From the NCBI GenBank assembly GCA_963855995.1, contig OY979731.1, positions 4,521,442-4,585,441 of the forward strand: a stretch of DNA of 64,000 nt, written 5' to 3'. How positions within the stretch are numbered: the stretch's first letter is position 1; each line of letters opens with the position of its first letter. Source of the DNA: Muricea muricata (taxonomy: Eukaryota; Cnidaria; Anthozoa; Malacalcyonacea; Plexauridae). A program made the position numbers and the translations under genes. This document shows positions 3,389 to 60,883 of the stretch, piece after piece. Under the pieces are notes generated by a model that saw only the letters and a program-made list of their open reading frames with translations, did not search any database and was not told the origin of the DNA.

Positions 3389-4566
3389 GATATTCTTCTA
3401 ATAGTACCTAGCAAAACCAATGGAATTTTGCGGATCATAAAAGCACAGTTCGACGGTGAAAACGAAGGAATCTGCAACACACGGCCGAATTCGCAAAATG
3501 GAGTCGGTGAGTAAATTTATCGGTACTATATATCGGCAGGTTTTCATGCTCTGTTATGTAGAATACGAGAATTATGTTTAAACAAGTGTGAAGTTTGACA
3601 ACAGTGAAAAAATTTTCGTAAAAACATAAATAATCCACTTTACCATATTCAGCAATTCTCGTATGATAAGGTAAGGTTTTCTTCTTAACAACCACCTCTA
3701 ATGTGACCACTCTGAACACCATAAAAGCTTAATAACAAATGTATCTCTAATGATTCAGAAGTTGTAGTCCTAAGGAGAGGGTTTTTTCCGCGGGGGCTCG
3801 TTTTCGGACATTTCGTCCCGGATTCAGGTTTGGGCAAATATGCCATCTTGTTCGTCATGATCAACTCACCCCAAAACAGTCGAGATTATCTGGGGTAAAT
3901 GAAACGCATACAAAGTCCTTGACAGGTCCTAGACTATTCATGTTAATTGTCTACAGTTCTGTAAAAAAGTCAAGGCTCAAAAACTTAAATTTACCTTGTC
4001 ATTCACCTTCAATCCAATTCAATCACGAAATCCAATTTGTATTTAAGAAGTCCGAAACCTCTCATCATATTGTCACACTTTATAGTTTTGTTAAGGTTGC
4101 AGACATTCTGCAGTCACTTTGCAATTTGCCAAAATATAAATAGTACTTGTAAGTGCTCATCGTGCCCGTGGCTAGATGATATAGTATTCCTTCCGCCTTT
4201 TGAAACTGCTTGATTTTGTACTCGTATTTGAACAGATGTGCATAACAAAACTTTATTAAAATTATCGCCAGAGCTTACGCTTTAACAATATTTCAACTCA
4301 CATGTGATAGCTGCATATAGGAATTTAAATAGTCTCATGCCAACCGCAATTTGATAAAATGAGAATATTTGAATGGTTAATAAATATTCAAGTCTTTACG
4401 TATGCATGGCGTCTTTACAAAACATTAAGCGGGGAAAACCTCTCTTTATCAATTACAGTTTTGTACTTTCCGAAAAAAAAATTTGCACTTGACCTGAATA
4501 GTAGGCGATGTCAATTTGCAAATACTTACTCATACCAAACAGGGAGCACATGCAACCACAATGTGC

Positions 4567-4769
4567 CAATGGCGAATCCGAGGTAAGTCAAAATAAATTA
4601 TAGCAGCTCAATTTCAAATTCAAAATAGCTTTATAACAATGTCATAGGTTATGAATTTCAAAAGAATAAAATCTAACCAATGAAGTTGCTTTGAAGGTGT
4701 TTTAAAATGTAAATATATCCTAGAATGAGCTGTGGTAATTTATTTTGACTTACGCTAGATCCGCCACTG
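4567..4769. mobile_element. 203-bp hAT-type MITE, copy 1
   Basis: Ends CAATGGCGAATC and GATCCGCCACTG form imperfect inverted repeats. The 8-bp target duplication CAATGTGC sits at 4,559-4,566 and 4,770-4,777. The interior is nearly identical, and exactly equal in length, to the copy at 58,427-58,629 inside the Gypsy element. It is non-coding. Confidence 0.92.
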
Positions 4770-4777
4770 CAATGTGC

Positions 4778-5587
4778 CGTCAAAGTAAAGTTACAGCACA
4801 CAAGTTGCGGCCATTTTGTCACTAATTTCTAGTAATGAGTGAAGTTACGCTCGCTTCTGTGCAATGCTTTTCATTGCTTTTGTCCGAGGACTCCGCTGGA
4901 CGTTCGCATTATTGGGTTATATTCGGTCCAGTCTCACTAAAAACTGGAGACCCGTGTTGTTTTTAATTGAAACACCAGTAAGTGCGACTCTTTCATTGGC
5001 GTAGTTACATAGAAGCGACTGTAAAATTACTTTCAAGTGGCTAGTGCCCTTATACCTGTCGCTTGCTGCATATGTATGTATCTATATATGTATATTTTAT
5101 TTTTTATATATCTGCAGAAGTGGTGTGTTAAAAGTCAAGGGCCTCGTCCTCTTTTTTAGAATTGATGAGAGGAAATTATGTATAGTTTTAAATCTAAAAT
5201 ACAGCAATATAATTATGTATATATGAGCTTTTGTCGATAGGGAGAAAAGATTCCCAGTTTTATCTGATAAAATGCTCTTTTTGTAGTATCTTTGCATTTT
5301 TTGGGCATTTGTTTAGTTTTCAAAGTAGAATTAACTGAATTTTTTATCATTACGTTCAGATGCTCGATAAAAAAACACGCATTTTTATCAATTCATCTTC
5401 AGTTAAAAATTATAATGGTATGCAGTTAGAAAACATACTATGTGTAAACGTGAAATGAAAATGTAGAAAAAGCCATTCAAATATACAATGTGTATAATAG
5501 TTTTGCGCATCAGAATATCTTTGATAATGATATATAATCTGCGATAATATGATGCGGCAATAAAATCTGCGATTCCCTAATGAAAAA
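4778..5587. other. Non-coding part of copy A
   Basis: Up to about 5,535 this aligns with 33,965-34,705 in copy B. It is AT-rich with no supported gene. The short frames are not conserved between copies. Confidence 0.6.
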
Positions 5588-15930: not shown

Positions 15931-16400
15931 CTATTCTGTTTCGGTGAGAAACATTTTGAAAAAATAATAATCATAATAAGCAACAGCCGACAACGGCGAC
16001 AGCCGCAGAATTATAACAGTCTTTCTATAATAAACGTGTTCATCTTGGCACGAAGTAACCCACTGAAAGCCATTTATATAAGACAGTCTTTCAAGACGTT
16101 CAAACAGGCCCCTACTTAGTTTTAAACCTATTGCTGTCAAAGCATTTGGAATAAATATTTCACACGTATGAACAAGCTTTTGATTATTGTCAGCAAAACT
16201 GACTGCCACAAGTTTCCGCATATGCATCCATGGCAAGAAAAGCAACGACCAAATATGACCTTTTAGGGAATAATCTGACACGTATATAAACTACATCTGT
16301 TATTCCCTAAATACAATTAACCGATATTTAAATAATTTTATCAAACAATTCTTGACTTCCAGAACATTCAAATAAAAACAAGTGAAACTTTGCTTCTAAA

Positions 16401-16922
16401 TTAAATCGAACTTTTCATTGCGATTGTCAGAGTGGTACAATCCCCAAGAACTAATTTAGTGTCCATGGAAAGCATAACTCCTTGCATGTGATAAGTTATC
16501 GAAGAATTTAGGAAGTTTGGAATTAACTCGAAACTGCACAGAAACTCGTCCTTCGCGCTTGACGTATTCCCACACAATTTATTTATATATACAAATTTGA
16601 AATTTGATGGATATGTGAAAACGCAATTAAAAATAGCATCTATACTATAACGATACCAACATAATTTAAAGCTTCGAGCAAGGGTCCTTCGTCCAGAAGT
16701 TAAACCGCCACTGTCAGTTCCGGACGAAGGAAATTTTGCTCGAAATTTCGAATTTTTCATGATTGTTTGTATCGTTTCTGGCAGTGAAAGATCCTGTTTT
16801 TGTGTGCTTTTTAAAGCAATTCCGTTCATTCGAGTTATAGAACAAGTACTTTCTGGGTCAACCTTGTAAAAAAATTCCTCTGATGTTGCATTCAAGCATC
16901 GGCGCCCATCCAAAATTTCCAC
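16401..16922 (-). CDS. Unidentified 173-aa open frame
   Basis: This is the longest open frame of its neighbourhood. It starts from a GTG-type position, with an in-frame TGA shortly upstream and no ATG. The translation is Cys- and Ser-rich with varied composition, which is unusual for chance in AT-rich DNA. I recognise no motif. It could be an exon of an unknown minus-strand gene, but no convincing acceptor or partner exon was found. It lies just beyond the end of the duplicated segment. Confidence 0.25.
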   Translation of the reverse strand: MEILDGRRCLNATSEEFFYKVDPESTCSITRMNGIALKSTQKQDLSLPETIQTIMKNSKFRAKFPSSGTDSGGLTSGRRTLARSFKLCWYRYSIDAIFNCVFTYPSNFKFVYINKLCGNTSSAKDEFLCSFELIPNFLNSSITYHMQGVMLSMDTKLVLGDCTTLTIAMKSSI

Positions 16923-21483: not shown

Positions 21484-33305
<11,822 letters not shown>

Positions 33306-38278: not shown

Positions 38279-41200
38279 CAGGGGCCACAGAAGCACCTCA
38301 AAAGTGGGGGGGAGGGGGGGGGGCACTTACCGAAAGGGGCACTTGAGTTTTGCCTGCTACTATATCTTTGTATAATGATATATATACTTTGATGAATTAT
38401 AGTCAAGTCACAAAATCAGTCATGAACATTCTCAGTTGGATGATATGAATATGGTACATGTATTCTTTATTGCTCTGCAAGCGTCCTAAATCCTCACAAA
38501 CTGAAATTCATTAAATAAACAATTTTTATTACAAGCAATGCGATTTTATTAAAATTTACCGAAAAATCGAACTCTACGTTCGTTTTTCAGAACAAAGTCT
38601 TTGGCAATCAAACTTAAGTCCAGTTCGTCGGTTCTAGCGTTATTACATGCATAATAATAAGATTGTTGTATCGTGCCGCCGTCATCGTGCTCCTTAGATA
38701 CGTTTTGACAAGACGCTGGCTTGAAAAGGATCGTTCTCCAGAGGCTGCGCTCATTGGGGCAAGAAGGTAAATTTGCAAAAGTCGGACAACGTTGGACATT
38801 GCCATGACGATCTGCGATGAGTCTGTTTCTTCGGTCGAGAATACTGAGGTAATAGTGTCAATTGATGTCACCGTCTTTACTTCTGGAAGTCGCTGCGAGA
38901 TAATTCTTTCAAGAAGCATTAACTCTGCCTTCAACTGATCAAAATCCAGGTCATCTTTTTAAAGGCGTTTCACTGCATCATTTAACTCAAACTCACAACC
39001 ATTCGATGCATTAATAAGCACAGTTTCAATGTTCATCAGTACGGAATAGATTTCTTGATTGAAACGTTCCTTTAACGCTGCCATGCACGAGTCAACTGCC
39101 TCAACATATTGGGCCCGGTGGAAATCATTCGCGGATTGGAAATGATGTTGCTCACCATCTCCGTGCTGAAATCGCCGCGGAATTTGCTTCGGTCTTGACA
39201 GTTTAGGATTCTCAACAAAGTTGATGGCCTTGTTCGAAGTGAGTGCTTGCTCGTAAAACAAATGGAAGTTGTCTCGTTGACGTTGCAAATTTGTCTTTAA
39301 GGCATTGACGCAAGTAACAGTTGTCTGTGCTGAAATTGAAGGCTTCTGTAATGTAGATGCAACTTGTTCACACACGCTGAAGATATTCTGCGCAAAACTT
39401 AAACCAAAATTCGTGGAAAACTTCTTTAATTGTCTAGCAAGACCTGATGCGGTGTCACGTACTGTAGACTTCGAAGATTCTTGGCAATGCTAAGTAATGT
39501 GGAGTACAGAGCCTCGTAATTGTTCAAGACAGCCGAGATAGCTTTCGTTCTTACCGTCCACCGAGTTGGACACAACAAATGCGGATTTTCAACTTGCGTG
39601 GCGTTGTCGTTAATATCTTTCGCGATATGCTGGTACTGCACCATTCGTGTTGGTGAATATCGAATAAACACGGCCAAATCTTGCACGACCTTCAACGCAT
39701 CGCTGATAATTTCGCTTTCTTTCACACAATCATCCAAAGCCAAATCAAGTGTGTGGTTACCGCAGTGAATATACAGCGCCCGGGGATTTTCTGAAGATAT
39801 TCGGGCTGCAACTCCATTCCTACTTCCAGCCATATTTGCTGCGCCATCATATGTTTGCCAACGACAGTAGTCTATAGTCAAATTGCATCTCAGCAAAATA
39901 TCCTTCAACGAAGTGGTGCTTGTTTCAGCCTCGGTTTTCTCCAGCTCGTACATACCGAGGAAATCTTCGTGGACGGATAAATCGGTTGTAGATATCCATC
40001 TTAAAACACATGTTAATTGTTCCTTGTTGCTTATGTCTCTAGACTCGTCTGCAATCAGGCTGAATAACTGCGATTTCTTACGTAGATCTGCAACTATAGA
40101 CCTCAGGACTGCGTTGCCCATCATGTTAATCAACTCGTTTATAATGTCATGACTGAGATATCTTCCGTTTTCAACCCACTCCAGCAATTCAGGGACATCT
40201 TCTGCTCTTAATTTTAGCAGCTGGCTTAAGTTACTCTCAATTTCAGTTTTTCCTTGCAAGCTCTGGGCCTTGCGTGCCAAATACCTAATGCTACTAAGTT
40301 GTTTTAACAACATTCGCTTTCGAGTTTCCTGGGTTCTTTTTAATTCTCCAACCAATTTCGCTCCGATATCGCTTTTCGAATCATCAAATAATAAAACTTT
40401 CTCAGTGGCCTCCGCATGAAATTTGGACTGGGAGTGTTTTTTAAGTTTTTCTTGGCACTTCTTCCAGTCGCTGAAATGTCTCACAAATGTCTTTTCACCG
40501 TTATGACTAAATGTAATAAGGCCTTGACGCATCGCTTTTACAGAAGTAACAGGCAATGGTCCCTTTCGTCATACAATATGTGAACCAAGCGTATTTTAAA
40601 AATATAGAGGATGTACATGTTCGTACATTCGACGATCCTCCTTTAGTGGTTTGCTTTTAGATGTGCGCTTTATTTCTTCTTGGGTAGGACGGTAAGGCTT
40701 TCTGTCTGTTCAGCACAAATGCTGACAGTCCTGTCCTAACGAACATTCCGGTGATTCAGTTGGAATAGGTTCTACAAATGGGACGATAGTCGTAGAACTT
40801 GGCAAAGACGTTAGGTTGTCATAACTCGTGGGAGTAGATGGCTCAGTCGTGGGCGCGACTGGTATGCTTGAACAAGATGTAGGGCCAGGATCGCTCAAAC
40901 TTGACTCGAAATCAGAATGATGAGATAAAAAGGTTGGTGGAGTTTTCGCATCTTTTTAGCTGTTTCTACAAGCTCTTTTTCTTTTTCGCGTTTTCTCCTA
41001 GCAGCTCTAGGCATGATGATTTTAACCAGACCTTTTGATTGAATATCGTGAATTTGTAGTAATTATTATTATAGTGAAGAACAACAGCATTACAGCAAAA
41101 GTCTGCAAAACAATACGCCGGGAGCAATGCGTAGGCGCACAATTTGTAGCCTAATGGGGATCATAAATTGCGATTTTTAGATGGTTAAGCTAGCGGGCGG

Positions 41201-43936: not shown

Positions 43937-45103
43937 ATGGAAGAGACGCAAGCAAATCAACCTGAGCAATCGCATGATAATGCTATTGTTTCGGCCATTA
44001 CTTCCATGAGTGAGGTTTTGGCTACTTCACTGTCCTCACTGAAGGCAACGATGACAAATTCTTTCACTGAAATTCAAAGATCGTTGGAACAGTTCGCTGC
44101 TACCGATGTTGGCGATTTTTCGGATATCGAGTCATTAGATCATGGTGAAAGCTGTCGAAAACGACCTCGGATTGCCACGGAAGAATTACCCCAGCAATCT
44201 GGGGCCACTGCGCGAGACGAGTCGCTAATGGCTGTCCCGCAGAGAGAGATTGATAAGCTGATAAATCAGCCTTCTCTCACTGTCGAAGCCGAAACGCCTA
44301 CAGATTCAAATTCTCACGACATACCAGTGCTATCAGGCATTGCGAATGATTTGAAGTTGGAGCAAAAGAAAGCGCCAGCAATTAACGAGCAACTTGCCAA
44401 GATAGTCCAAAGTTTAATGCGCGAAAAGCTGGACGATGAAGTCTTAACAGAAACGAAGACCCGTTACCTTTTGCCGGAGAACTGTGATAGTTTGACCACA
44501 ACAAAAGTTAACCATCTTATTTGGGATCAATTAAAACCCGAAACTCGTTCTTTCGATGTAAAATTACAGAAAGTTCAAGCGCATATTGTCAAAGGTGTAA
44601 CGCCAATTGTTAACATCATTCAAGCGTTACTTCAAGCCAAAGACAAAATCCCCAGCGATGCATTAGATGTTCAGGGTCTCTTGAAAGCTGGCACTGATGC
44701 TATTGCATTGTTTGGTGCTGCTAGTTATGAATTAAATATGCGCAGACGGGATAGTATTAAGCATGATTTGAATGATGATTACCGACATCTTTGTTCGCCA
44801 ACTGTCCCATTCACAGATTTCTTGTTTGGTGATGATGTCGAACTTTCCAAACAGCTCAAGGATTTAACCGAAGCAACAAAAGTTGGCAAAAAGCTCGCAA
44901 AAACAAGTTACAGACCCGTCTACAACCGTCAGAGAAATTACAAACTGGGGCACAAGAGAGCATACCCTTTTGCTAATCGAAATGCACCTCAACGATCATT
45001 TCCTGTCAACAAACATTTAAACTGGAAACGGCCCAGCCTCCAGAACTCAAGAGAAAGAGTCGAGGGGAGGAGGCAGCCAAGTAGGGCCAAGTATACCCTC
45101 TAG
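43937..45103 (+). CDS. DIRS gag-like ORF
   Basis: 388 aa from ATG shortly after the left terminal repeat. The N-terminus is acidic and Ser/Thr-rich with a helical segment (EVLATSLSSLKATMTNSF). The middle is helical. The C-terminus is strongly basic (RPVYNRQRNYKLGHKRAY), suiting nucleic-acid binding. No CCHC finger is seen. The RT frame starts 11 bases after its stop. Confidence 0.75.
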   Translation: MEETQANQPEQSHDNAIVSAITSMSEVLATSLSSLKATMTNSFTEIQRSLEQFAATDVGDFSDIESLDHGESCRKRPRIATEELPQQSGATARDESLMAVPQREIDKLINQPSLTVEAETPTDSNSHDIPVLSGIANDLKLEQKKAPAINEQLAKIVQSLMREKLDDEVLTETKTRYLLPENCDSLTTTKVNHLIWDQLKPETRSFDVKLQKVQAHIVKGVTPIVNIIQALLQAKDKIPSDALDVQGLLKAGTDAIALFGAASYELNMRRRDSIKHDLNDDYRHLCSPTVPFTDFLFGDDVELSKQLKDLTEATKVGKKLAKTSYRPVYNRQRNYKLGHKRAYPFANRNAPQRSFPVNKHLNWKRPSLQNSRERVEGRRQPSRAKYTL

Positions 45104-45113
45104 TGAGGTTAGT

Positions 45114-46226
45114 ATGAATACTTCTCAATTTCAAGCCGGTAATTTAAAAAATTATATAGATGTGTGGCAGACAGCAACCGATGATCTAGATGTTTTAGAC
45201 TGGGTTGCGCATTGTCATATAAAGTTCATTAATAATGAACTGCCAATTCAGACTGAGATGCAGCGTGCTATAAAATTTAATGAAAAAGAGTCCATTATTA
45301 TTGATAAGGAAATTGCAAAGCTCCTTGCAAAAGGTGTTCTTGTTCATTCCCAGCATGAACCAGGGGAGTTCATATCTCCTATCTTTTTACGGCTTAAGAA
45401 AAATGCGATTGATTATAGAATGATTCTCAACTTAAAAGAGCTTAATAGCTTTGTTGAGTATGAACACTTTAAAATGGAATCACTTCGTTCTGTAACAGAC
45501 ATGATGACTCCCAATTGTTATATGGCATCAATCGATATAAAGGATGCCTATTATACTGTGCCAATAGCATTAGAGCACCAGAAATATTTAAGATTTGCAT
45601 GGTGGGATACGTTGTATCAGTATACTTGTTTACCAAATGGCTTATCATCAGCACCCCAAATTTTTACTAAGATTATGAAACCTGTGTTCCAAACGTTGAG
45701 GAAACAAGGGCATATGTCATCCTCATATATAGATGATTGTTACCTTCAAGGAGAAACCTATAATGAATGTGCTGACAATGTAGACGTTTCTACATCTCGT
45801 CTTAAACAATTAGGGTTTTTTCCCCATGAAGAAAAATCACAAATGGTTCCAACACAGCAGATTACTTACTTGGGGTTCGAACTTAACTCGATTACAATGA
45901 CTGTTACGCTGACAAAAGAAAGGGCCACAAATATTAAACAAAAGTGTGCGACTATTCTTGCTGCAAAACAGGTTACCATTCTTAAATTAGCGCACGTAAT
46001 CGGCCACTTAGTCTCTAGCTTCCCAGGGGTCGAGCACGGTCCCCTTTACTACAGGAGTTTAGAGCACGAAAAAACAACCTCTTTAGCAAACCATCATGGG
46101 CACTATGATGCCCAAATAACCCTTTCCGCTGACTCTGTTTCAGATTTACATTGGTGGGTTAATAATGTTGAAACGGCTACAAAACAAATCTCTCACGGTG
46201 AACCGCGTGTTTTTTATACAAACTGA
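45114..46226 (+). CDS. DIRS reverse transcriptase
   Basis: 370 aa with RT motifs in order: RMILNLKELN, SIDIKDAYYTVPI, LPNGLSSAPQIFTKIMKP, and catalytic YIDD (about residues 205-208). It overlaps the RNase H frame by about 60 bases and is intact. Confidence 0.88.
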   Translation: MNTSQFQAGNLKNYIDVWQTATDDLDVLDWVAHCHIKFINNELPIQTEMQRAIKFNEKESIIIDKEIAKLLAKGVLVHSQHEPGEFISPIFLRLKKNAIDYRMILNLKELNSFVEYEHFKMESLRSVTDMMTPNCYMASIDIKDAYYTVPIALEHQKYLRFAWWDTLYQYTCLPNGLSSAPQIFTKIMKPVFQTLRKQGHMSSSYIDDCYLQGETYNECADNVDVSTSRLKQLGFFPHEEKSQMVPTQQITYLGFELNSITMTVTLTKERATNIKQKCATILAAKQVTILKLAHVIGHLVSSFPGVEHGPLYYRSLEHEKTTSLANHHGHYDAQITLSADSVSDLHWWVNNVETATKQISHGEPRVFYTN

Positions 46227-47154
46227 CGCATCCACCCATGGATGGGGCGGCGTTCGCGACGGTAATAGGACTGGGGGGAGATGGAAGCCAGAAGAAATTA
46301 ACTCACATATAAACTACTTGGAATTATTAGCAATTTTGCTTACTTTGAAAGCGTTATGTCATGATTGTAAAAATAAACACATACGAGTACAGTGTGATAA
46401 CACTACAGCAGTTTGTTATATAAACAATATGGGCGAGTCAAAATCCAACAATTGTAACGCCATTACTAAGCACATATGGGAATTTTGCATTCACCAACAA
46501 ATATGGTTGAGTGCCGCTCACTTACCAGGCTGCAAAAATACAGATGCCGATCTTGCATCACGGCATTTTAACGACCGGACTGAATGGATGCTTGATCGCC
46601 GCATATTTGAACAGGTCGCTACTAAGTTTGGGTATCCCACAATTGACCTATTTGCCTCGCGTTTAAACAACCAGTGTCCAAACTATGCCTCATGGAGACC
46701 AGACCCAGGTGCCCAACATGTAAATGCATTTTCTGTTAATTGGCATAATTTTTTCTTTTATGCTTTCCCGCCATTTAGTGTAATAGGACGCTGTTTAGAG
46801 AAAATACAACACAATCAAGCCGAAGGGATCCTGATTGTACCATTATGGCCAAGTCAAAGTTGGTATCCCAAGCTACTCAGACTTTTGGTAAGCCTTCCAG
46901 CTGTGATTCCAGCGAAGGACAACTTACTCAAAATGCCAGCCACTCAGAAGTTACACCCGTTACGAAAGAAACTGACGTTGTTAGCATGTCATTTATGCGG
47001 CGACTCTACCAAAACAAAGGCTTTTCTCAACAAGCTACAAATATCATCCTCAACTCTTGGCGAGAATCCTCGCATCAACAGTACGGAACATATATTAGTA
47101 AGTGGCTATTATTCTGTTCTAAAAGAGAGATTAATCCCGTTCGTCCATCTGTAA
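46165..47154 (+). CDS. DIRS RNase H and methyltransferase-like region
   Basis: RNase H motifs are visible: QTDASTHGWGG, a Glu in NYLELLAILL, VQCDNTTAVCYIN, and DADLASR. They are followed by a stretch with TIDLFASRLN, SWRPDPGAQHVNAFS and FPPF, which matches the region between RNase H and recombinase usually called Dam-like in DIRS elements. The methyltransferase assignment is by position and weak motif only. Confidence 0.78.
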   Translation: MLKRLQNKSLTVNRVFFIQTDASTHGWGGVRDGNRTGGRWKPEEINSHINYLELLAILLTLKALCHDCKNKHIRVQCDNTTAVCYINNMGESKSNNCNAITKHIWEFCIHQQIWLSAAHLPGCKNTDADLASRHFNDRTEWMLDRRIFEQVATKFGYPTIDLFASRLNNQCPNYASWRPDPGAQHVNAFSVNWHNFFFYAFPPFSVIGRCLEKIQHNQAEGILIVPLWPSQSWYPKLLRLLVSLPAVIPAKDNLLKMPATQKLHPLRKKLTLLACHLCGDSTKTKAFLNKLQISSSTLGENPRINSTEHILVSGYYSVLKERLIPFVHL

Positions 47155-47211
47155 CTATGGCGGTAGAATTTTTGACAGAACTTTATGACCTCGGACTTGG
47201 TTATAGCAGTA
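46845..47211 (+). pseudogene. DIRS tyrosine recombinase, N-terminal part before an insertion
   Basis: This frame overlaps the RNase H frame. It encodes the SAM-like N-terminal helical domain (ILNSWRESSHQQYGTYISKW). It is cut at about 47,211, where an 820-bp insert begins; the frame ends inside the insert at 47,252. Confidence 0.75.
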
Positions 47212-48032
47212 CTAGAAATACATGCATGCAGCAACCCCTCGCCACTAACTAAGAGCATGCAACTATATTTTCGGAATTACATGAAGTACTTATAGAGGTT
47301 GTTGTCATAGCAACACGGCAATGGTTATTCTTTCTGTATATTTTTTCAAAATGACAAAATATCAGTTTTTAATCCTTGTTTTATTGACAATTTTTTTAAA
47401 TGGCACAACATTTGTCATCAGTATGTTATTACGCCTAATGTAAGCTTAAATTTGGTATAAAATACGACCTATTTACATTAGTAATAAGAAGACAGTCTTG
47501 CATTTACAAAACATAAACTTACTCTGGAATTTAAACAGTGAATAGACTGGATGAGTACGGCTACGCCGGCCTTTATAAAGCATTAAATCACAAGTATAAA
47601 TACGCATTATCAACAAACTTGCCTTGTGTTTCACGCTATAGTCAATTCTTGGCGCTTCTCTGTACTTTCCCCGAATTAATCTCTCTTCAAGAGTCTTGTG
47701 GCAGTCGTTTTCGTCTTATTTCTCGCCTTTTTGGATGCCTTAAGTGTTTGCTACTCCTGATAGTCGGCCATATTCCTGAGATCAGAAATGACCACCCTTC
47801 GTTGGTTGTGAAAGTTGCCAAATCTTTTTGCAAAAATACGAAATATTGTAGTGCAATATAGTCCGCCATATTTTTGAGATCAGTGATGACCACCCACTCA
47901 CCGCCACCCTTGAACCACGCGCCCGCGATATTTGATGAACTTCAGACTTCGCTATGCTTTCCTTTTCCCGGGTGTAAATAGCCGTGCGGAATTAGTACCC
48001 TCGCACGGCGCTTCGCGCCGTTGGCTCGGGGA
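47212..48032. mobile_element. About 820-bp insertion disrupting the recombinase gene
   Basis: The recombinase sequence stops at TATAGCAGTA and resumes at TTAATACAGCC. The insert contains an imperfect tandem pair (about 47,760-47,820 and 47,860-47,905, GGCCATATT...GAGATCA...TGACCACCC) and ends in a GC-rich hairpin (GCACGGCGCTTCGCGCCG). Its open frame at 47,538-47,861 spans the repeat and resembles no protein I know. No clear TIR or TSD was found, so the class is unknown. Confidence 0.6.
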
Positions 48033-48787
48033 TTAATACAGCCAGGTGTGCTCTTTCAGCGATTTTGGAATGTCCAAGTTCTAGTAACAGCACGTTTGGG
48101 CAGTCTGTTGACGTAAAACGGTTTATGAAGGGCATTTTTCAAAGCAGACCTGCCCTTCCAAGATATAACAAAACTTGGGATGTTCAAACATTGCTTCAGT
48201 ATCTATTATCCATGAAGGACACAAAAGATCTTACTCTAAAGGAGCTTACTCTGAAACTTGTAATTTTAGTTGCCTTAACTACAGTTCAACGCGGACAATC
48301 ATTGCATTTAATGGATACCGCCAACATGGTACACGAGCACAATTCGCTCGTTTTTCTGTTAGGCAGTGCTATCAAACAGACAAAACCAGGGAGATCTTCA
48401 TCTGAACTGACAATAGAATTGACAGCTTACTCTCCTGATGAGAAACTTTGTGTTGTTCGCACTTGCTTAATCTATTTAGAAAAAACTAAGCCCTTACGAG
48501 GTGTTGAAACTCAGCTTTTTATTACCCATCAAAAACCTCATAAGAAAGCTAGTCGGGACACTATTAGACGCTGGATTAAACAGATTATGGCAACTGCCGG
48601 ACTAGATGTAACAGTTTTCAAACCACATAGTGTGCGAGCCGCTGCAACGTCCAAGGCAAAGTTAAACAATGCATCTACTTCAGATATCATGAAAGCAGCT
48701 GGGTGGACATCCGCTGCGACATTTGCAAAGTATTATGATAAACCTATAGACCTTGCAGAACCTTTATCGGTTAGTGTGTTAAAGTAG
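48033..48787 (+). pseudogene. DIRS tyrosine recombinase, catalytic part
   Basis: Catalytic-domain motifs are present: the first Arg in TTVQRGQSLHL, then FKPHSVRAAATS (H-x-x-R), and the nucleophile region FAKYYDKP. All catalytic positions look kept, so the gene was probably active before the insert at 47,212. Confidence 0.82.
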
Positions 48788-51059: not shown

Positions 51060-51674
51060 AACATTGTTTATACAATATGGCTTGGATTTAATATCTTCAG
51101 AAAGTATTAGGACTCTTAGTTTCTGGAAATATTATAACAAAGATAAGTCACAGTTACATTAATTATTTCGGTCCACTGTTGATCTATTCATCTAAAGTCA
51201 GCTATTGACCTAAGCTCTACTTCTGATTTATGGTCCACTATTGATCAAGTCAGTCACGACAACTAAATTAAATATGCGATGAAGTTTTAATTCGCATAAT
51301 GTGTAATCACGTGGAACGCGTCAGGACATAGTCTACTTTATTAGTTAAAATTAACTCCACCATACTCACATAAAAAAAGGAACAGTCACTAAAAAGCGAT
51401 AAAGGGCAAATGTTTTATATTTTTCGCCTACTTATGTAAACTCATTTTTCCCAAAGCAACAGGTTGCAAAATAAATGCTTGTTTCCACCACTACAACTTC
51501 CCAATGGCATATTAACCCACAACCCACGTTTTGTCCAGTTCCTAACAACTTTTTTTGCATCATCCGACATTCTTGATAAGTTCATAGTTTAATGGCTGAA
51601 TATCCCGCCACGCGCTTTTGCTGAAACCAACATCACAGGAAGACCCTATTTGTCGTCCGGTCCATGAGGGGCAG

Positions 51675-51690
51675 ATCACATAAAAGTGAG
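51675..51690 (+). promoter_or_regulatory. TATA-like box of the secreted-peptide gene
   Basis: CATAAAAG lies about 80 bases before the ATG at 51,761. A transcription start 25-30 bases downstream would leave a 5' UTR of about 50 bases. This is the only promoter element I would propose. Confidence 0.35.
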
Positions 51691-51760
51691 CGAAAACAGC
51701 CACGCAGACCAGGGCGAAACAAGAAGAGTCAAAGTCAACGTGTCAAGAAATTAATCAACG

Positions 51761-52858
51761 ATGAAATTTTGGACAATTTTGGCATTGTTCGTTGTGGTGT
51801 TTGCTGTGTTTCCGCGAGCTGAACAAACTGAAAAGATTGATGGAGTGAACAACATCGATGAAAAGGCATTGCAAGATGATCAGAATGACGAAGATATGTG
51901 AGTTTTCTTTAACTTTATAACAAGATTAGTGGGAAAGTATGATCGACAAATTCACTTCGAAACAGTGAAAAGTAGAATCGTATTTTGTAAAATAATGCAT
52001 GTATCATTTATTATATAATCTCTCTATGCTAACTGTAGTAAACCTCTGGTAAACAGCATTTTCGCATTTTGTAAATTGCAATGAAACTCGAAAATGTAAA
52101 TCATCACAAATAAATATTCTTTAAAAAGATATATATTAACGTAAAAAATTGGATCTATTGGATCAAAATATCTCCCAAGCAGTGCATCTGTTGTTAAATT
52201 TTGAGCAAATTTTGGGCCGCTGTGCGAATTATCATTCTATATTTTATAGATATCCTTAATTATATGAATAGAGGTATTATATTGGCGATATTATTTGGTA
52301 TTTCTCGTGTGCCACACTTAGGAATGACATAGCAATATTTTACAAATGACTTTAATACTTTTTCTGTTGTAGCTCAGATTGTTGGGTTTTTTTAAATTCG
52401 ATAGCTATATGATAATTTTAAAGCTATTGTTTTCTAAAATGTATTATTTAGTTCCAGGTCTATTTATAACTCGATTTTCTTTTTCGTGTCACGACTGCAG
52501 ATAAACCCACATAATTGATAGCCTTCACTCATGTGATATCGGCCGAAACATTATCCTGATGCCTGGTGGAGTTTTCTGAACGATGAAACACATAGAATCA
52601 TTTACTGACAAATTTGCGAGATATATAGGCACCTATTAAATAATTTTTATATCAGATTCATCATCCAAAAAATCTCATTGCAGTGATCATGCCATAAAAG
52701 ATGTAAACAATGTCCTATCGAATGATGAAGACGAACCTGCAAAGTTCAAACGTAGACCAGGACTACGCATCCCAAGGCCACGAACACCACACCTACCAAG
52801 GCCACGCTTTCCAAGGCCACACTTTCCAGCACCACGGATTCGCGTAGCGTGGCGTTGA
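51761..52858 (+). CDS. Secreted Pro/Arg-rich cationic peptide precursor (probable antimicrobial peptide)
   Basis: Two exons, 51,761-51,897 and 52,684-52,858, joined by GTGAGT and TTGCAG sites, give 103 aa. Residues 1-20 are a signal peptide (MKFWTILALFVVVFAVFPRA). Residues about 21-66 are acidic, with about 16 Asp/Glu against 5 Lys. After a KRR dibasic site the last 35 residues have 11 Arg, 10 Pro and no acidic residue, in repeated PRP units (for example HLPRPRFPRPHF). This layout (signal, anionic propiece, cationic end) is that of antimicrobial precursors such as Hydra arminins, while the Pro/Arg pattern resembles mammalian bactenecins and insect proline-rich peptides. Homology to either is not claimed. 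Cleavage at KRR and antibacterial action are inference. It lies between a decayed region and a Gypsy element, with no nearby paralogue. Confidence 0.8.
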
Positions 52859-54531: not shown

Positions 54532-55680
54532 CTAATATATTGGTTGAGGCATCACTGGGTGTCCATAAATCGGTGTTGGCAGGTTATCAGGTACTGGTAC
54601 TTGGCATGGGTACGCTGGAGAGTGATTAGGTAATGGATATGGATATGGGTGTGCTGGAGGGAAGATAGGACAGCTGCTAATCGGTGGGAAGTAAGGGAAA
54701 ACTGGGGGTAGGGGTAAGTAAAGTGCGTTGGTTGCCATCCGGTCTCTGGAGGGGGCACAGAAACTTGGAACAACCCCATTGGCAAGGTCTCGCCAGGCCC
54801 GCAGTAGGTTAATCGATCGGGTGGATGCCGTACGCGGCGGGGTCTCGGGGTTCTATATGTCTCGGGTCGTGGATTCAAGTTGTCATCATGTTGCTCGCCG
54901 TTGACGTGATCACCATTGTGAACGTTCATGTTTTCGCCTTGCTCGTGGTGATGATCCTCTTGTACCTCGTTCTCTTCAGGAAGGGCCTCGTTTTCCGCAG
55001 GAAGTACTTCGTTCGCTTCAGACAGTACGTCGTTTTCTTCACCTTCCGATAAGCTGTCTGGGGTTGCCATAGGTGGAGTCGGGTTTCGTGGCGGGAATAC
55101 TGTAACAAGGTCCTGAGATTCGTCATCACTAGAAATGTCATCATTTCGTGGTGCAGGGCAAGGGGGTTCAGGTTTACGTACTCTCCGTGTTGTGGGTGGG
55201 GAAGTTCGTTCAATGCCAGTATGCGATTTGTCTACGGGTAGATAATCGCAGGGAAGAAGTAGGTTTCGGTGTAAGACCCTGTTCTTTCGTCCACCATTCT
55301 CAGATGCGACCTCGTACACTGGACTGTCTTCCCCTTTCCGTCCAACTATGACATAGATATCGTTCTCCCAGAATGACCGAAGTTTTCCAGGTCCCCCTCG
55401 TTCGCTTAAGTTTCGCACTAGTACACGATCTCCAGGTTGCAGAATAGAGCTACGTACGAAACGGTCGTATGTTTTCTTGGCTTTAGCAGCTCTTTCGTTT
55501 ATCTTCTTTCCAGCTAGTTGATAAGCCTTCTGCATAGCTGTTCTCCACTTTTTTACATACTGTGGGTAATCTTGCTTAGTTGGTGACGTAGTGGTTTGAA
55601 AGATGAGGTCAATTGGTAGGCGGGGGTGCCGACCGAACAGCAAGAAGAACGGAGAGAATCCTGTTGTATCACTACGACGA
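54532..55680 (-). pseudogene. Gypsy pol C-terminus: integrase end and acidic/Pro-Tyr tail
   Basis: Continues the integrase after a frameshift near 55,670-55,690. It begins with [16 protein letters not shown], includes ILQPGDRVLVRNLSERGGPG and VHRNLLLP-type C-terminal integrase sequence, then an acidic repeat (ENEVLPAENEALPEENEV). At the end two frames are plausible: the 363-aa frame, and an overlapping Pro/Tyr-rich frame (54,738-54,532), suggesting a second late frameshift. Confidence 0.8.
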
Positions 55681-58411
55681 CTTTATCTACGTGATCTTTC
55701 CATCGCGACTTTTCGTTCTCGGGGAGTGTACGTAGCATATCAAGCAGAGTTCTGTTAAACCGTTCCACTTGCCCATTTCCTTGCGGGTGGTAAGGTGTAG
55801 TACGACAATGGTTAACGCCACACAGCTGCTCCAACCTTCCAAGAAGACGGTTTTCGAACTCTCCACCCTGGTCATGATGTATTTTCGCAGAAAATCCAAA
55901 ACGAAGGATGTAATTGTTATAAAGTTTTTCAGCCACAGTTTTTGCTGATTTATTGCGTGTCGGGTATGCTTGTGCGTACCGAGTAAAGTGATCGACAATC
56001 ACCAGTATATACTCGTACCCTCCACTGGACTTTTCAAGGTGGATGAAATCAATGGATACTAACTCAAATGGGGAGATGGTGATGATGGGTTGGAGAGGGG
56101 CTTTTGTTTTTAATCTTGGAGGTTTCTGTTTCATGCAACGACAAGTCTTCTTCACGTAATGTTCCACGTCACTTTGCATTCTAGGCCAATAAAAGCGATC
56201 TCGAGCTAGATGGAGGACACGCTCAGATCCAAGGTGGCCCATGTTGTCATGGAGTTCTCTTAAGACTGTGCGATGGTATTTTCGAGGAAGTACAATCTGG
56301 TTGTATGTTCCACTTTTTCTTCGGAGTATCCCATCTTTGTCAATCACTAATTTGTGCCACTCGTGGAGGAGAAGTTTGGTATCGGCCGATTCGCTAGCTC
56401 GCTGAGCTGGCGTTGGTTGTTTATCATCTTTGACGAAAGAGTACACTTTGCCAATGATGCTATCGTCGAGTTGAGCTTGTCGAATGTCGGTGACGTCAAA
56501 CCTTGGTTCACCTTTCGTTGAGGGTTTGGGTTCACTTTCACTCAGTACGCTTGGGTCGTATGTGATGGAAGAAATCCAGTTAACTCTCCCTTGGTCTTGC
56601 TCCTTTGCTGACTGTATGATCGCACAAAGTTCATTTTGACAAGTCTCCTCAGTGCACGATGCCATGTATTCACCCATAAGTTCGGGCATTCTGGATAAAG
56701 TATCAGCATCAGTATTCGTTTTCCCAGGGCGATACCGTATGGTAAAATTGAAGTCGGCCAACTCACCTATCCAGCGAAGACCAGTCGCGTTCAGTTTTGC
56801 CGATGATAAAACATACGTTAACGGGTTGTTATCCGTATATACGACAAAACTAGGTGAATAGTAAAGGTAGTCCCGAAATTGTTCACAGACTGCCCACTTC
56901 AATGCCAGAAATTCCAGCTTTCCAGAATGAAGGTGATAGTTCTTTTCTGCCGGCGTTAGGGTCCGTGAACCATACGCGATCACCCGAAGAGTACCATGTT
57001 GTTCTAGATAGAGAACAGCACCTAATCCCGTTTCAGATGCGTCGGTATGAAGCACGTATGGACTATTAGGATCAGGGTACGCCATCACCGGTGCACTAAT
57101 AAGACACGATACGAGTTTCTCCAACGCCGTCTGATGAGCAGGTGTCCAGGAAACCGGGTGGTTAGCCCATTGCTTCTCGGTACGTTTCTTTGTTATTGTG
57201 GAACTAGCTGCGCGGTTTTCAGCAGGTTTAACTAAGTCGTAGATAGGCTTTGCGATTTTTGAGAAATTTTCGATATACCTACGGTAATAGTTCAAAAATC
57301 CCATTAGCTTTCGAACTTCGTTAACCGTCTGGGGAGGAGATTCTTTCAGTCGTACGATTGGAGCGATTGTAGAAGGATCTAGGTTGTACCCCTTTCCCGA
57401 TACTACTCTGCCCAAGAACACCACTTCTCTCTTGAACAGTGTACATTTCTTAGGCTTTAATTTCACGCCATGTTCTTTAAGACGTTCAAGAACTTTTCGG
57501 AGGTGTTCAATGTGATCGTTAAAAGAAGGACTAAACACGATAACATCGTCGAGATATGGAACACAAATTTCATCACGTAGGCCACTCAAACATGTCTCCA
57601 TAAAACGTTGAAACGATGCTGGTGCGTTCGTTAGGCCAAATGGAATTCGTATCCATTCGTACAGTCCCCATGGTGTAATAAAAGCTGTCAAGGGTTGGCT
57701 CTCAGGTTTTACAAACCCTTGGTGGTAAGCTTTGCCTTGATCAAGGACCGAAAACCAAGAGTTCCCACCCAGGTTATCAAGAGTTTCCTGAATCCTCGGG
57801 ATTGGGTGACGGTCTACTTGCGTTTTCCGATTCAGCTCGCGATAGTCCACGCACAGCCGCAAGGTATGGTCCTTCTTTCGGACGCAGACTACGGGAGAGC
57901 TGTACGACGAAGTTGATCTACGAATAAAGTTCCGATTTAACAAATCTTCGACATAAGATTTCACCTCTGGGTATAAAGGTCGAGGCACCGCAACGTAGTT
58001 CTTTTGAACAGGCGTGTTGTCGTTTAAGGGAATATCCATCTGGAGATTTGGAATACAGCCTACGTCGTCATCGGTTTTGGAAAAAGCGTCGGCTTGCTCA
58101 GTTAATAGTCGTGAAGCGAGTGTCCTTTGCTCCTTTGTCAGATCACCCAAATTTACGTCTTTAAGATGGTCGGGTAAATTTATGGCAGTACAATCATGTG
58201 TTTCACTCACAATGAAATCGTTTGACTCACTTACGATCGGTTTTTGAATGTTGGTATGATCATTCTTTAATCTCACTTCCACCGGAGTGACTGATTGGAC
58301 AAGCTGGAGGCGACCGAGGACTGTCCGACTTTTTAAGCTTATATCATGTCTAGTCGTATTCTGAATTTCTATTGCAATTCTGCTCGCTTTTCCCCCCTTC
58401 GAATTTACCAA
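55553..58411 (-). CDS. Gypsy pol: reverse transcriptase, RNase H, integrase core
   Basis: 952 codons open after the MITE. RT motifs include [37 protein letters not shown] and catalytic YLDD (about residues 286-289). RNase H has [14 protein letters not shown] and [12 protein letters not shown]. The integrase HHCC finger starts [15 protein letters not shown] (about residue 720), and the DDE core spans [17 protein letters not shown] and [12 protein letters not shown]. In the RNase H-type order all catalytic residues appear kept. The integrase tail is in another frame after about 55,680. Confidence 0.92.
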
Positions 58412-58426
58412 CGTATCTTGTACTTC

Positions 58427-58629
58427 CAGTGGCGGATCCAGGGTAAGTCAAAATAAATTATAGCAGCTCAATTTTAAATTCAAAATAACTTTATAACAAT
58501 GTCATAGGTTATGAATTTCAAAAGAATAAAATCTAACCAATGAAGTTGCTTTGAAGGTATTTTAACATGTAAATATATCCTAGAATGAGCTGTGGTAATT
58601 TATTTTGACTTACGCTAGATCCGCCACTG
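58427..58629. mobile_element. 203-bp hAT-type MITE, copy 2, inside pol
   Basis: Termini CAGTGGCGGATC and GATCCGCCACTG are perfect inverted repeats. The 8-bp duplication TGTACTTC sits at 58,419-58,426 and 58,630-58,637. It is the same size as, and nearly identical to, 4,567-4,769. Insert plus duplication is 211 bp, which accounts exactly for the frame difference between the pol pieces on either side. Confidence 0.95.
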
Positions 58630-58637
58630 TGTACTTC

Positions 58638-59588
58638 CAGACCCGATGGCCACTGATCGTTCTCATCAGCTTCGAACAACACTGGAGTACCTTTTCCTAA
58701 TGGACCAGTGTTTACTCTACAACTTACTTTCACATTTTGCCCTCGCGGTATAACCACGTCTTTTCTACCGGTTTTCACAGAACACAATTCCGCATGGCTA
58801 ATGTTGTTCACAAACTCAACAAGGACGGGTGCATTGAAAATAGTGGTGCCGAGAAAGTTAGATGAAATATCATTGCAATCAAGTTTTTGTACTTTGATCA
58901 GGTGTTCTATCACATTAAAACCCAACAAGGGGAGTTCTAATTTCTCGTTTGCTACTAGAAATGGCACAGATGTTGTGTTTCCAGAATCCCCAACCTGAAA
59001 CTCTAGCTCCACCCATCCCTTATAAGGAATGCTGCTACCATTTGCTGCCGTCAGTGTAAGGTCGCAGTTTATTAGTTCGCCCACGTCCCTTATTACTACG
59101 TTCGGAAAATTTGCCACGAGAAAGTCCGCTGAAACAATCGATACTTGGGCTCCAGTGTCCCAGAAGACCTCTACCGTCTTACCGTTGAGTTTCGCTTTAA
59201 CCGTGCATCTTCGGCCCACTAGGTTAATTAACCTTTTGTGCTCTTTAGGCGTAAGATGGCTTGTAAAACCTTCCGAACGATCCTCATGCATAGCCTCGTT
59301 TTTGTTGTAGATTTCTTTCTTGATGGCGTTGCATAATGTTTTGTGTTTAGGCCAATGAGCCTTTTGGCATGCATCATTACAGTAACCGACTAATTTACAA
59401 CACGCACATCGCCAAAATGTTTGTCCTAAATTTTTCGCGCAATTGTTACACTGACGGGATGTTAAATCTCCGGCTAAACCCTGTCCCGACCGCGGGGTAG
59501 CCGCTTCTCGTTTCCCTGAACTTTTGTGTTTTTTGCACACTCGGACGCGATATGTCCAAATTACCCACAAGCGAAGCAGTGCTGGCAA
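58638..59588 (-). pseudogene. Gypsy pol N-terminus: MYND finger and aspartic protease
   Basis: This frame overlaps gag by 28 bases in the -1 register. A MYND-type zinc finger (about residues 46-86: CNNCAKNLGQTFWRCACC, then GYCNDACQKAHWPKH) is followed by a retropepsin with VFWDTGAQVSIVS (about residue 143) and LLGFNVIEHL. The reading frame then enters the MITE and ends at 58,533. A MYND finger in this position is unusual for Gypsy elements. Confidence 0.85.
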
Positions 59589-60883
59589 CTAGCGCCAGTT
59601 CTCCGCTCCTTACACGCTTGACACCCCCAACCGCGATATCGTGTAAACTTCGGCTGTCTCCGATCGTAATGTGTCGTTGACTGCTCGTTATTACCTCCGA
59701 CTTGTTGACGTTTCAAATTTTCGAGCTCCGATCTTATCTCTCGAATTTCCACCAAAATTCGATTATCGTCGTCAACGCGCCTATGCTGCTTAATTTCCGT
59801 CTCATCAACTTCACAGACGTTAACATTAGCTAATCTCCTTTCACCAGCCAGCTTATTTTGCCTTTCGGCTTGGTGTGACGCCAACTCATTGACGTGTTTC
59901 ATCAATTCTTCGTCAGTTAATCCGGATGTACGAAGTATGGGCCTCAAATTTGCAGCTAGAATATCATCTCGCAGCCCTGTTTCAAAAGACTTCATGAAAG
60001 TCTTTTGAATGAGCGGTTCGTCGTATTGCACTTCGCATTCCGATTCTTTACTAGCGAAACCCACTTTATTACGCAAATCCAGAGCGCGCAAAAGAAATTG
60101 TTGTGCGGTTTCGTTGGGTTGCTGAAAGATTGTCGCCAGATGTTGATAAAGTTCTGACGCCGATTTTTCTCGGTAATGGACACGCAAAATTTTTCTTAAT
60201 TTTGGAAGGCTCAAATCATTCAAAGTCTCCACGTAGCTTCTCAGGCTGCTATGAAGAGAAATTGCGCGAATCACGGCATCGACAATTTCGCTCTCCTGAT
60301 AATTGCGTTTCAATCCCGAATCAATTTGATGCGTCAGCGAGACGAAAGTTAATTTGTCCGTGTGGCCCGGTTCGCCAATCTGCCCAGAAATTTTGAATTC
60401 GCGGCGTATGAACGGCGTGTTTGAGGGACTTTCCTCGCTTATGTTCTTAGTTGTCACTACTTTCGGGGTCTGAATAGGTTTCTTGGTTACGCCTGCCGAT
60501 TGAACAGTGGTTTGCCCAGCATTTGTCTGTGCCTCGGCAAATTTCGCCAACAGACTATCGAGTTCCGACTGCTGTTTTTGTTTTAGCAATTCAATTTGTT
60601 CTTTGATTGAACTCAGCGCCATCTCCGATTCATTCTTATTTTGTTTATCAGGTTTTAGACTGCCAATTGCCTGCTTAAACCAAGACACCTTTTCGGATAA
60701 TTCCCCTTCTTCGACTACCCTTTCATTGATCGATTTTTGAATGGTTTTTAAAGCCACTATTTTGCTTTTCTCCGACAAATCTACATCTAGTTTAATTGAA
60801 ACGGCGAATTCTTTCAGTTCGACCTCGCTTTTCGTATACAATAATGATTCTAGTTCAAATTGCAAAGACTCGAGGTTTTCCAT
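59561..60883 (-). CDS. Gypsy gag, ends in a broken zinc knuckle
   Basis: 440 aa from ATG at 60,883. The N-terminal third is helical and charged with a coiled-coil-like stretch (EQIELLKQKQQSELDSLL), followed by a capsid-like region (ATIFQQPNETAQQFLLRAL), then a basic tail. The last residues are CQHCFACG and then TAA (59,561-59,563). The codons after it read FGHIASEC, completing a CCHC knuckle, so the stop sits inside the finger. A likely -1 slippery site A-AAA-AAC is at 59,528-59,534. Confidence 0.85.
   Translation of the reverse strand: MENLESLQFELESLLYTKSEVELKEFAVSIKLDVDLSEKSKIVALKTIQKSINERVVEEGELSEKVSWFKQAIGSLKPDKQNKNESEMALSSIKEQIELLKQKQQSELDSLLAKFAEAQTNAGQTTVQSAGVTKKPIQTPKVVTTKNISEESPSNTPFIRREFKISGQIGEPGHTDKLTFVSLTHQIDSGLKRNYQESEIVDAVIRAISLHSSLRSYVETLNDLSLPKLRKILRVHYREKSASELYQHLATIFQQPNETAQQFLLRALDLRNKVGFASKESECEVQYDEPLIQKTFMKSFETGLRDDILAANLRPILRTSGLTDEELMKHVNELASHQAERQNKLAGERRLANVNVCEVDETEIKQHRRVDDDNRILVEIREIRSELENLKRQQVGGNNEQSTTHYDRRQPKFTRYRGWGCQACKERRTGASCQHCFACG

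Follow-up and report, generated by a model that had tools for sequence, protein, structure and literature searches.

The gene on the plus strand of the DNA stretch analysed here (the window; 64,000 nucleotides of Muricea muricata, G000:C16:4521442-4585441, in an assembly of 453 Mb and 74 contigs) is, as far as its sequence tells, a real gene model within a new octocoral family, and its predicted cationic end resembles proline-rich antimicrobial peptides (PrAMPs) by convergence. We hold it to be likely that this family is specific to the octocoral lineage and encodes secreted, cationic peptides of host defence, its window copy having become Pro/Arg-rich via a 15-base repeat array.

Gene model and predicted precursor

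A preliminary description of this DNA had joined exons 51761-51897 and 52684-52858 into a precursor of 103 aa. Our translation reproduced this product, which arose from only one of the six donor/acceptor combinations translated (Table 1). In all 16 gene models of the family, the window gene included, GT and AG allow the same phase-2 junction, the splice sites having been picked by hand from candidate lists that in some cases left a choice. This shared junction and the family promoter signature upstream make a chance splice unlikely, and a lone chance splice was rejected because the junction is common to the family.

Table 1. Features of the peptide gene in the window (positions of the 64,000-nucleotide stretch)
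Feature	Positions	Strand	Sequence or basis
Family core-promoter signature	51672..51702	+	CAGATCNCATAAAAGNGAGNGAAAANAGCCA, TATA-like CATAAAAG inside; family motif
Signal peptide region, exon 1 (predicted)	51761..51820	+	MKFWTILALFVVVFAVFPRA; cleavage after Ala20 judged by eye
Acidic propiece, first part, exon 1	51821..51897	+	translation
Phase-2 intron	51898..52683	+	donor GTGAGT at 51898, acceptor TTGCAG before 52684; same phase in 16/16 models
Short dispersed repeat inside intron	52351..52515	.	21 of 44 genome matches cover this part alone
Acidic propiece end, exon 2	52684..52750	+	...DVNNVLSNDEDEPAKFK
Basic boundary K68-R69-R70	52748..52756	+	K68 invariant in 9-sequence alignment; putative cleavage site
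Predicted mature end, 35 residues	52751..52855	+	RRPGLRIPRPRTPHLPRPRFPRPHFPAPRIRVAWR
15-base tandem array, 2.8 copies	52787..52828	+	codes LPRPR/FPRPH units
Stop codon TGA	52856..52858	+	translation

The whole acidic propiece has a charge of -10; the signal peptide is a prediction read by eye. The 35-residue end contains 11 Arg, 10 Pro, no Asp or Glu and three PRP, exactly as had been reported (29% Pro, 31% Arg, net charge +11). Analysis of its 34-residue form in 20,000 shuffles revealed that three or more PRP occur in 3.3% (shuffle mean 0.80), that the observed six PR are reached in 1.9% (mean 2.94) and that PP, absent from the peptide, is as low in 2.4% (mean 2.65). The PRP units fall within the 15-base tandem array. 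The mature part closes with ...AWR and has no G before K or R, i.e. no G[KR] amidation signal, and cysteine is absent from the whole 103-aa precursor.

The preliminary description had placed the PRP repeats after a KRR site. PRP units and a K-R-R boundary are present, but a cut directly after KRR is doubtful. Pro at P1' is generally unfavourable for cleavage, and since such a cut would place Pro in this position, the mature N-terminus is uncertain; we infer cleavage at or near K66-R70, with a cut before P71 being unlikely.

A multigene family with a common precursor layout

Searches of the M. muricata genome with two exon-1 protein queries (E<=1) revealed 23 and 30 places respectively, which combine to 31 including that of the window; all these counts are lower bounds. 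A match from query residue 1 was found for 27 of the 31. The places are distributed over C16 (17), C3 (11) and C5, C10 and C31 (one each), the weakest being C3:18092264 with a best E of 0.24. Exon 2 of the window gene as query detected at least 12 places. Both exons were paired for 23 of the 31 exon-1 places (the 16 models and seven more), and eight are without a paired exon 2. The candidate gene of the preliminary description is thus a two-exon host-defence-type precursor in an early-branching animal as proposed, but it does not stand alone, being one of 31 exon-1 places. With a family of this size, it should be viewed as a member of a variable family of arminin-like or myticalin-like type and not as a lone PrAMP gene.

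We scored 23 precursors, 22 from this genome and P0004 from Paramuricea clavata. C3_20572, whose exon 1 has no in-frame start, counts among the 16 models and was dropped from the scoring; two of the 22 own precursors depend on a choice of exons (C3_20560, where an exon-1 remnant separates the two exons, and C16_6785, where the middle exon was left out). The family layout consists of a signal-like start, an acidic propiece and a variable cationic end. K-R is found at the boundary of 21 of the 23 precursors, the exceptions being C16_4589 (YKS) and C31_33 (IER). Acidic residues account for 371 of 1128 positions in the propieces versus 6 of 552 in the first 24 residues past the boundary. All 23 propieces are negative (-5 to -17) and all full-length ends positive (+6 to +18), the latter charge including a long non-cationic tail in several relatives. 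The window gene combines the phase-2 junction, family exon 1, acidic propiece, K-R boundary, cationic end and promoter signature. It groups with C16_6803 (support 100/99) in a tree of the signal and propiece sequences, in which 10 of 20 inner branches have less than 80% support. In the member at G000:C16:6785582-6786498, a duplicated unit of the propiece seems to form an additional exon, located between exon 1 and the exon for the cationic end.

The 31-base promoter signature begins 89 bases upstream of the ATG of the window gene and is present at <=4 substitutions in 10 of the 16 models, one of the other six being covered for just 59 upstream bases. Searching the whole genome with <=3 mismatches detected 14 places (reversed control: 0), each starting 89 to 110 bases upstream of an exon 1 of the family, and no other place in the genome. 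As the motif was derived from the family, finding it at family genes is in part built in, which does not hold for its absence elsewhere.

Diversity and rates of change of the cationic ends

The majority of the family ends are Arg-rich and Pro-poor. They include an Arg/Trp end, APWRRRWRVRVRIKRRRFFARFGR (C3:20566292), an Arg/Ile end, RPLRRFIRIRIRLRRL... (C16:4612889), and a Trp/His end, SPLWWHRKRRVRVHHR... (C3:24631855). Pro/Arg ends are found in the window gene and in an LPRLPRVPR-type array at C16:4800437 and 4802783. Among the first 24 end residues, Pro occurs eight times in the window gene, five times (21%, without any PRP) in its closest paralogue C16_6803 and zero to four times in the other 21 precursors. 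The Pro-rich relative at C16:4800437 looks decayed from its sequence: no exon 1 was detected in its 10-kb stretch at E<=0.05, and the stretch from 4800511 to 4803059 interrupts its homology to the window gene. TRF identified 27-base units in this region (3.6 and 13 copies). The ends at C3:20566292 and C16:6800366 (C3_20565 and C16_6800) finish in FGR, a possible C-terminal amidation signal.

Pooled over nine pairs, which share members and are not independent, and in which gaps and gene conversion limit the comparison of rates, pN and pS were 0.041 and 0.054 for the signal part, 0.051 and 0.115 for the propiece and 0.108 and 0.146 for the mature part. Fisher tests on two of the nine pairs, selected for high mature dN, gave 13/72 in the mature part versus 42/565 in the intron for the window gene and C16_6803 (p 0.006) and 24/96 versus 57/835 for C16_4589 and C16_4595 (p 3e-7), the mature part having changed faster in both. 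In raw figures for the other seven pairs it was faster than the intron in C16_4841/4855 and C16_4612/4599, slightly faster in C16_4675/6885, C16_4920/6885 and C3_24631/24726, and slower in C16_6800/C3_20565 and C16_4612/4855. Individual comparison of the window gene with C16_6803 showed, from very few changes, dN versus dS of 0.068 versus 0.075 in the signal part and 0.051 versus 0.039 in the propiece. Because dN is about dS in the former and exceeds it in the latter, purifying selection on the window copy is not established.

Relatives outside the genome

A single-protein search revealed P0001, P0002 and P0003, and a family profile detected 16 proteins including these three (E 6e-16 to 3e-4). 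The closest relative from outside this genome is P0001, in which LPRPR is replaced by LRRPR and the stop of the window gene by Trp. P0004, from the family profile search, is a hypothetical predicted protein (partial) of P. clavata, which belongs to Octocorallia; it has a signal-like start, an acidic part and MFKR followed by APWRRRRWRLRRKLRRVRRK. According to the available text of PMC7467007, the P. clavata annotation was built from RNA-seq, protein alignments and ab initio prediction, which refers to the annotation and not to reads for P0004 itself. A profile of the Pro-rich exon detected two further proteins, a number that is no census as P0001 is too long for the length limits of the search. 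One of them, P0017, shares its propiece end with the exon at C16:6786348, terminates in EPWFGGRRRRRTPRRPRPRRPRYRPRTRTVW and carries a PRP unit.

Relatives of P0001 in prokaryote genomes and viral contigs were not confirmed, as expected for an animal gene. The best Pfam match was AlkA_N (15.4 bits versus a cut-off of 26, E 0.022), and PDB gave no useful match (best E 0.12 and 0.44). Rfam at gathering scores and a tRNA scan of the window returned no hits each.

Likeness to known peptides

Six family ends were aligned with 20 peptides from the tables in the available part of PMC7736402 and with arminin 1a (31 residues, from the accessible text of PMC12011183), using 400 shuffles each. The likeness to mammalian and arthropod proline-rich peptides that had been noted in the preliminary description was recovered at the sequence level: the window end reached z values of 2.9 with Tur1A, 2.8 with PR-39 and 2.6 with oncocin, uncorrected for the 21 peptides tried, and its TPHLPRPRFPR lines up with PPYLPRPRPPR of oncocin. 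The end of C16_6803 did not exceed a z of 0.8 with PrAMPs. Against arminin 1a, compared as the 31-residue peptide and not as precursor, z was 3.6 for the P. clavata end, 2.9 for C16_4675 and 2.5 for C16_4612, with no likeness for the window (-0.1), C16_6803 (0.5) and C3_20565 (0.0).

Box 1 of PMC7736402, in its available text, lists as sequence criteria of PrAMPs a Pro content >=25%, a net charge >=+1 and PRP as indicative and non-essential; antimicrobial activity and an intracellular target (DnaK and/or the 70S ribosome) are the essentials. The predicted mature end fits the sequence criteria, with 26 to 30% Pro across five possible start points, a charge of +9 to +13 depending on the start point, and three PRP.

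The mammalian proline-rich cathelicidins PR-39, Bac7 and Tur1A share with the window precursor a Pro/Arg-rich C-terminal peptide and local sequence likeness. Cathelicidins are defined by a cathelin propiece with conserved cysteines, whereas the window precursor, having no Cys in 103 aa, is without a cathelin domain, and cathelicidin identity was rejected. The insect PrAMPs oncocin, pyrrhocoricin and drosocin are likewise cationic with LPRPR- or PRP-type units, but they are shorter and their comparison with the window end is limited to a short stretch. Descent from bilaterian PrAMPs was rejected as the precursor differs. The preliminary description had left a choice between convergent and undescribed. 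Convergence is the best reading of the likeness, given that the other members of this octocoral family mostly have Pro-poor ends; the gene is absent from the literature searched.

The arminins of Hydra have, according to the available part of PMC12013895, the same order of signal peptide, acidic N-terminal part and cationic C-terminal peptide, which the window gene shows as well (signal by eye). Like the family described here they form clustered paralogues, but their genes are reported to be confined to Hydra (PMC10945409, text available in part). Arminins carry a C-terminal Gly for amidation, which the window end does not have, and arminin-like precursors are mentioned for placozoans (both in the available part of PMC12013895). 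The myticalins of mussels, as far as covered by the accessible text of PMC5577615, are also multigene and taxonomically restricted, with conserved signal and propeptide, a hypervariable cationic mature part, a dibasic site, and Pro/Arg-rich and Arg-rich subfamilies. They differ in having a central mature part and a C-terminal acidic part, whereas the acidic part of the window precursor is N-terminal, and in having three exons with a phase-1 second intron and an occurrence in mussels only (same source).

Proposed function and alternative explanations

These sequences are best read as an undescribed, arminin-like octocoral family, one copy of which evolved a PrAMP-like end independently. Its peptides are probably antimicrobial, and expression, secretion and antimicrobial action of the window gene are inferred from host-defence biology at large. 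The conserved start would direct the precursor into the secretory pathway, the acidic propiece would neutralise the basic end, and proteases cutting at or near the K/R boundary would release it. The cationic end would diverge fast between copies, and the 15-base repeat array would have turned that of the window copy Pro/Arg-rich. The resulting peptide, presumably extended and non-helical, would most likely meet bacteria by charge and may act on anionic targets at or inside the bacterial cell.

The strongest alternative is that the window peptide is a membrane-active or nucleic-acid-binding Arg-rich peptide like other members, with its Pro being incidental, a reading that we regard as plausible if tentative. 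It agrees with the other ends being Arg-rich with zero to five Pro in the first 24 residues (window: eight), and with a basic charge that is kept while the sequence varies; PRP and PR above, and PP below, the values of shuffles speak against it. Pro-rich repeats also disfavour a lytic helix.

A true PrAMP mechanism, with SbmA-type uptake and a block of the ribosome tunnel or of DnaK, evolved independently of insects and mammals, appears rather unlikely. TPHLPRPRFPR aligns with Bac7 and PR-39 in addition to oncocin, and with 29% Pro, a net charge of +10 or +11 and three PRP the sequence criteria of Box 1 are covered. The target is the least certain element of the proposal: PRP units and the LPRPR-like core speak for an intracellular one, but caution is required since this core is altered in P0001 and missing from C16_6803, and since the ribosome was considered an unlikely target of myticalin A5, a peptide with 28% Pro (PMC5577615, available text). 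Binding of the window peptide to the ribosome or DnaK is therefore regarded as doubtful. That short tandem repeats in a fast-changing octocoral family independently made a ribosome- or DnaK-targeting PrAMP, with an origin outside bilaterians, is a speculative possibility of the same order. It may have occurred more than once, as P0017 likewise carries a PRP unit.

A decayed or unexpressed family copy is improbable: dN about dS versus the closest paralogue and the existence of broken relatives would agree with decay, but the window copy has its open frames, its junction, the boundary and the promoter signature. A neuropeptide or other signalling precursor, e.g. of the PRP-amide type known from hydrozoan hormones, was rejected as very improbable. 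A secreted-type precursor, a basic boundary and PRP units would suit it, but amidation takes a Gly followed by a basic residue behind the peptide, and the mature part contains no G followed by K or R; each precursor has a single mature part, and the paralogue ends are very different.

The octocoral family thus preferred was not described in the literature searched, a search whose reach excluded most subscription papers and supplements. No proline-rich cnidarian peptide was found in the available text of PMC11767717 or PMC11820242 (the term proline occurs 0 times in that of the latter), and the accessible part of octocoral venom work (PMC11896702) contained nothing matching the family. A literal literature search for five peptide strings returned a match for arminin 1a only. 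A review of invertebrate PrAMPs covers annelids, crustaceans, insects, molluscs and mammals, with 0 occurrences of cnidaria in the main text as available (PMC11678341).

With its steady leader and promoter and its fast-changing end, the family offers a means to ask how repeat expansion shifts a host-defence peptide from one class to another (Pro-poor Arg-rich to Pro/Arg-rich), and whether peptides that converge in sequence also converge on one bacterial target. For the arminin design, whose genes the available text of PMC10945409 reports to be Hydra-only, it supplies a counterpart in octocorals.

Genomic surroundings and additional observations

Directly downstream of the peptide gene lies an LTR (Gypsy-type) retroelement (window 54552-60883, minus strand) with an ORF of 952 aa that matches RT, RNase H, H2C2 and rve integrase domains. 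A retroelement that by eye looks DIRS/Ngaro-like occupies 43937-48787 (plus strand), with RNase H and a phage-integrase-family recombinase above cut-off and a Dam-methylase-like match below it in a domain scan that excluded the RT ORF. Transposase-like ORFs, one of them of 376 aa with a DUF4371 match, are found at 38614-40556 (minus strand). ORFs at 29400-31809 (plus strand) show ZU5 and Death domain matches below cut-off and could be exons of a gene for an UNC5-like protein or a death adaptor. A long dinucleotide-type microsatellite at 22754-23672 gives rise to artefact ORFs in several frames.

Contig C74 carries COX1 at 4213-5553 and a MutS domain at 15972-16499 in an open frame of 525 codons; mitochondrial mutS is known from octocorals, and the animal was accordingly taken to be one. 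A second COX1-like copy with one internal stop was found at G000:C1:38414782-38416095 and may be a nuclear insertion of mitochondrial DNA.
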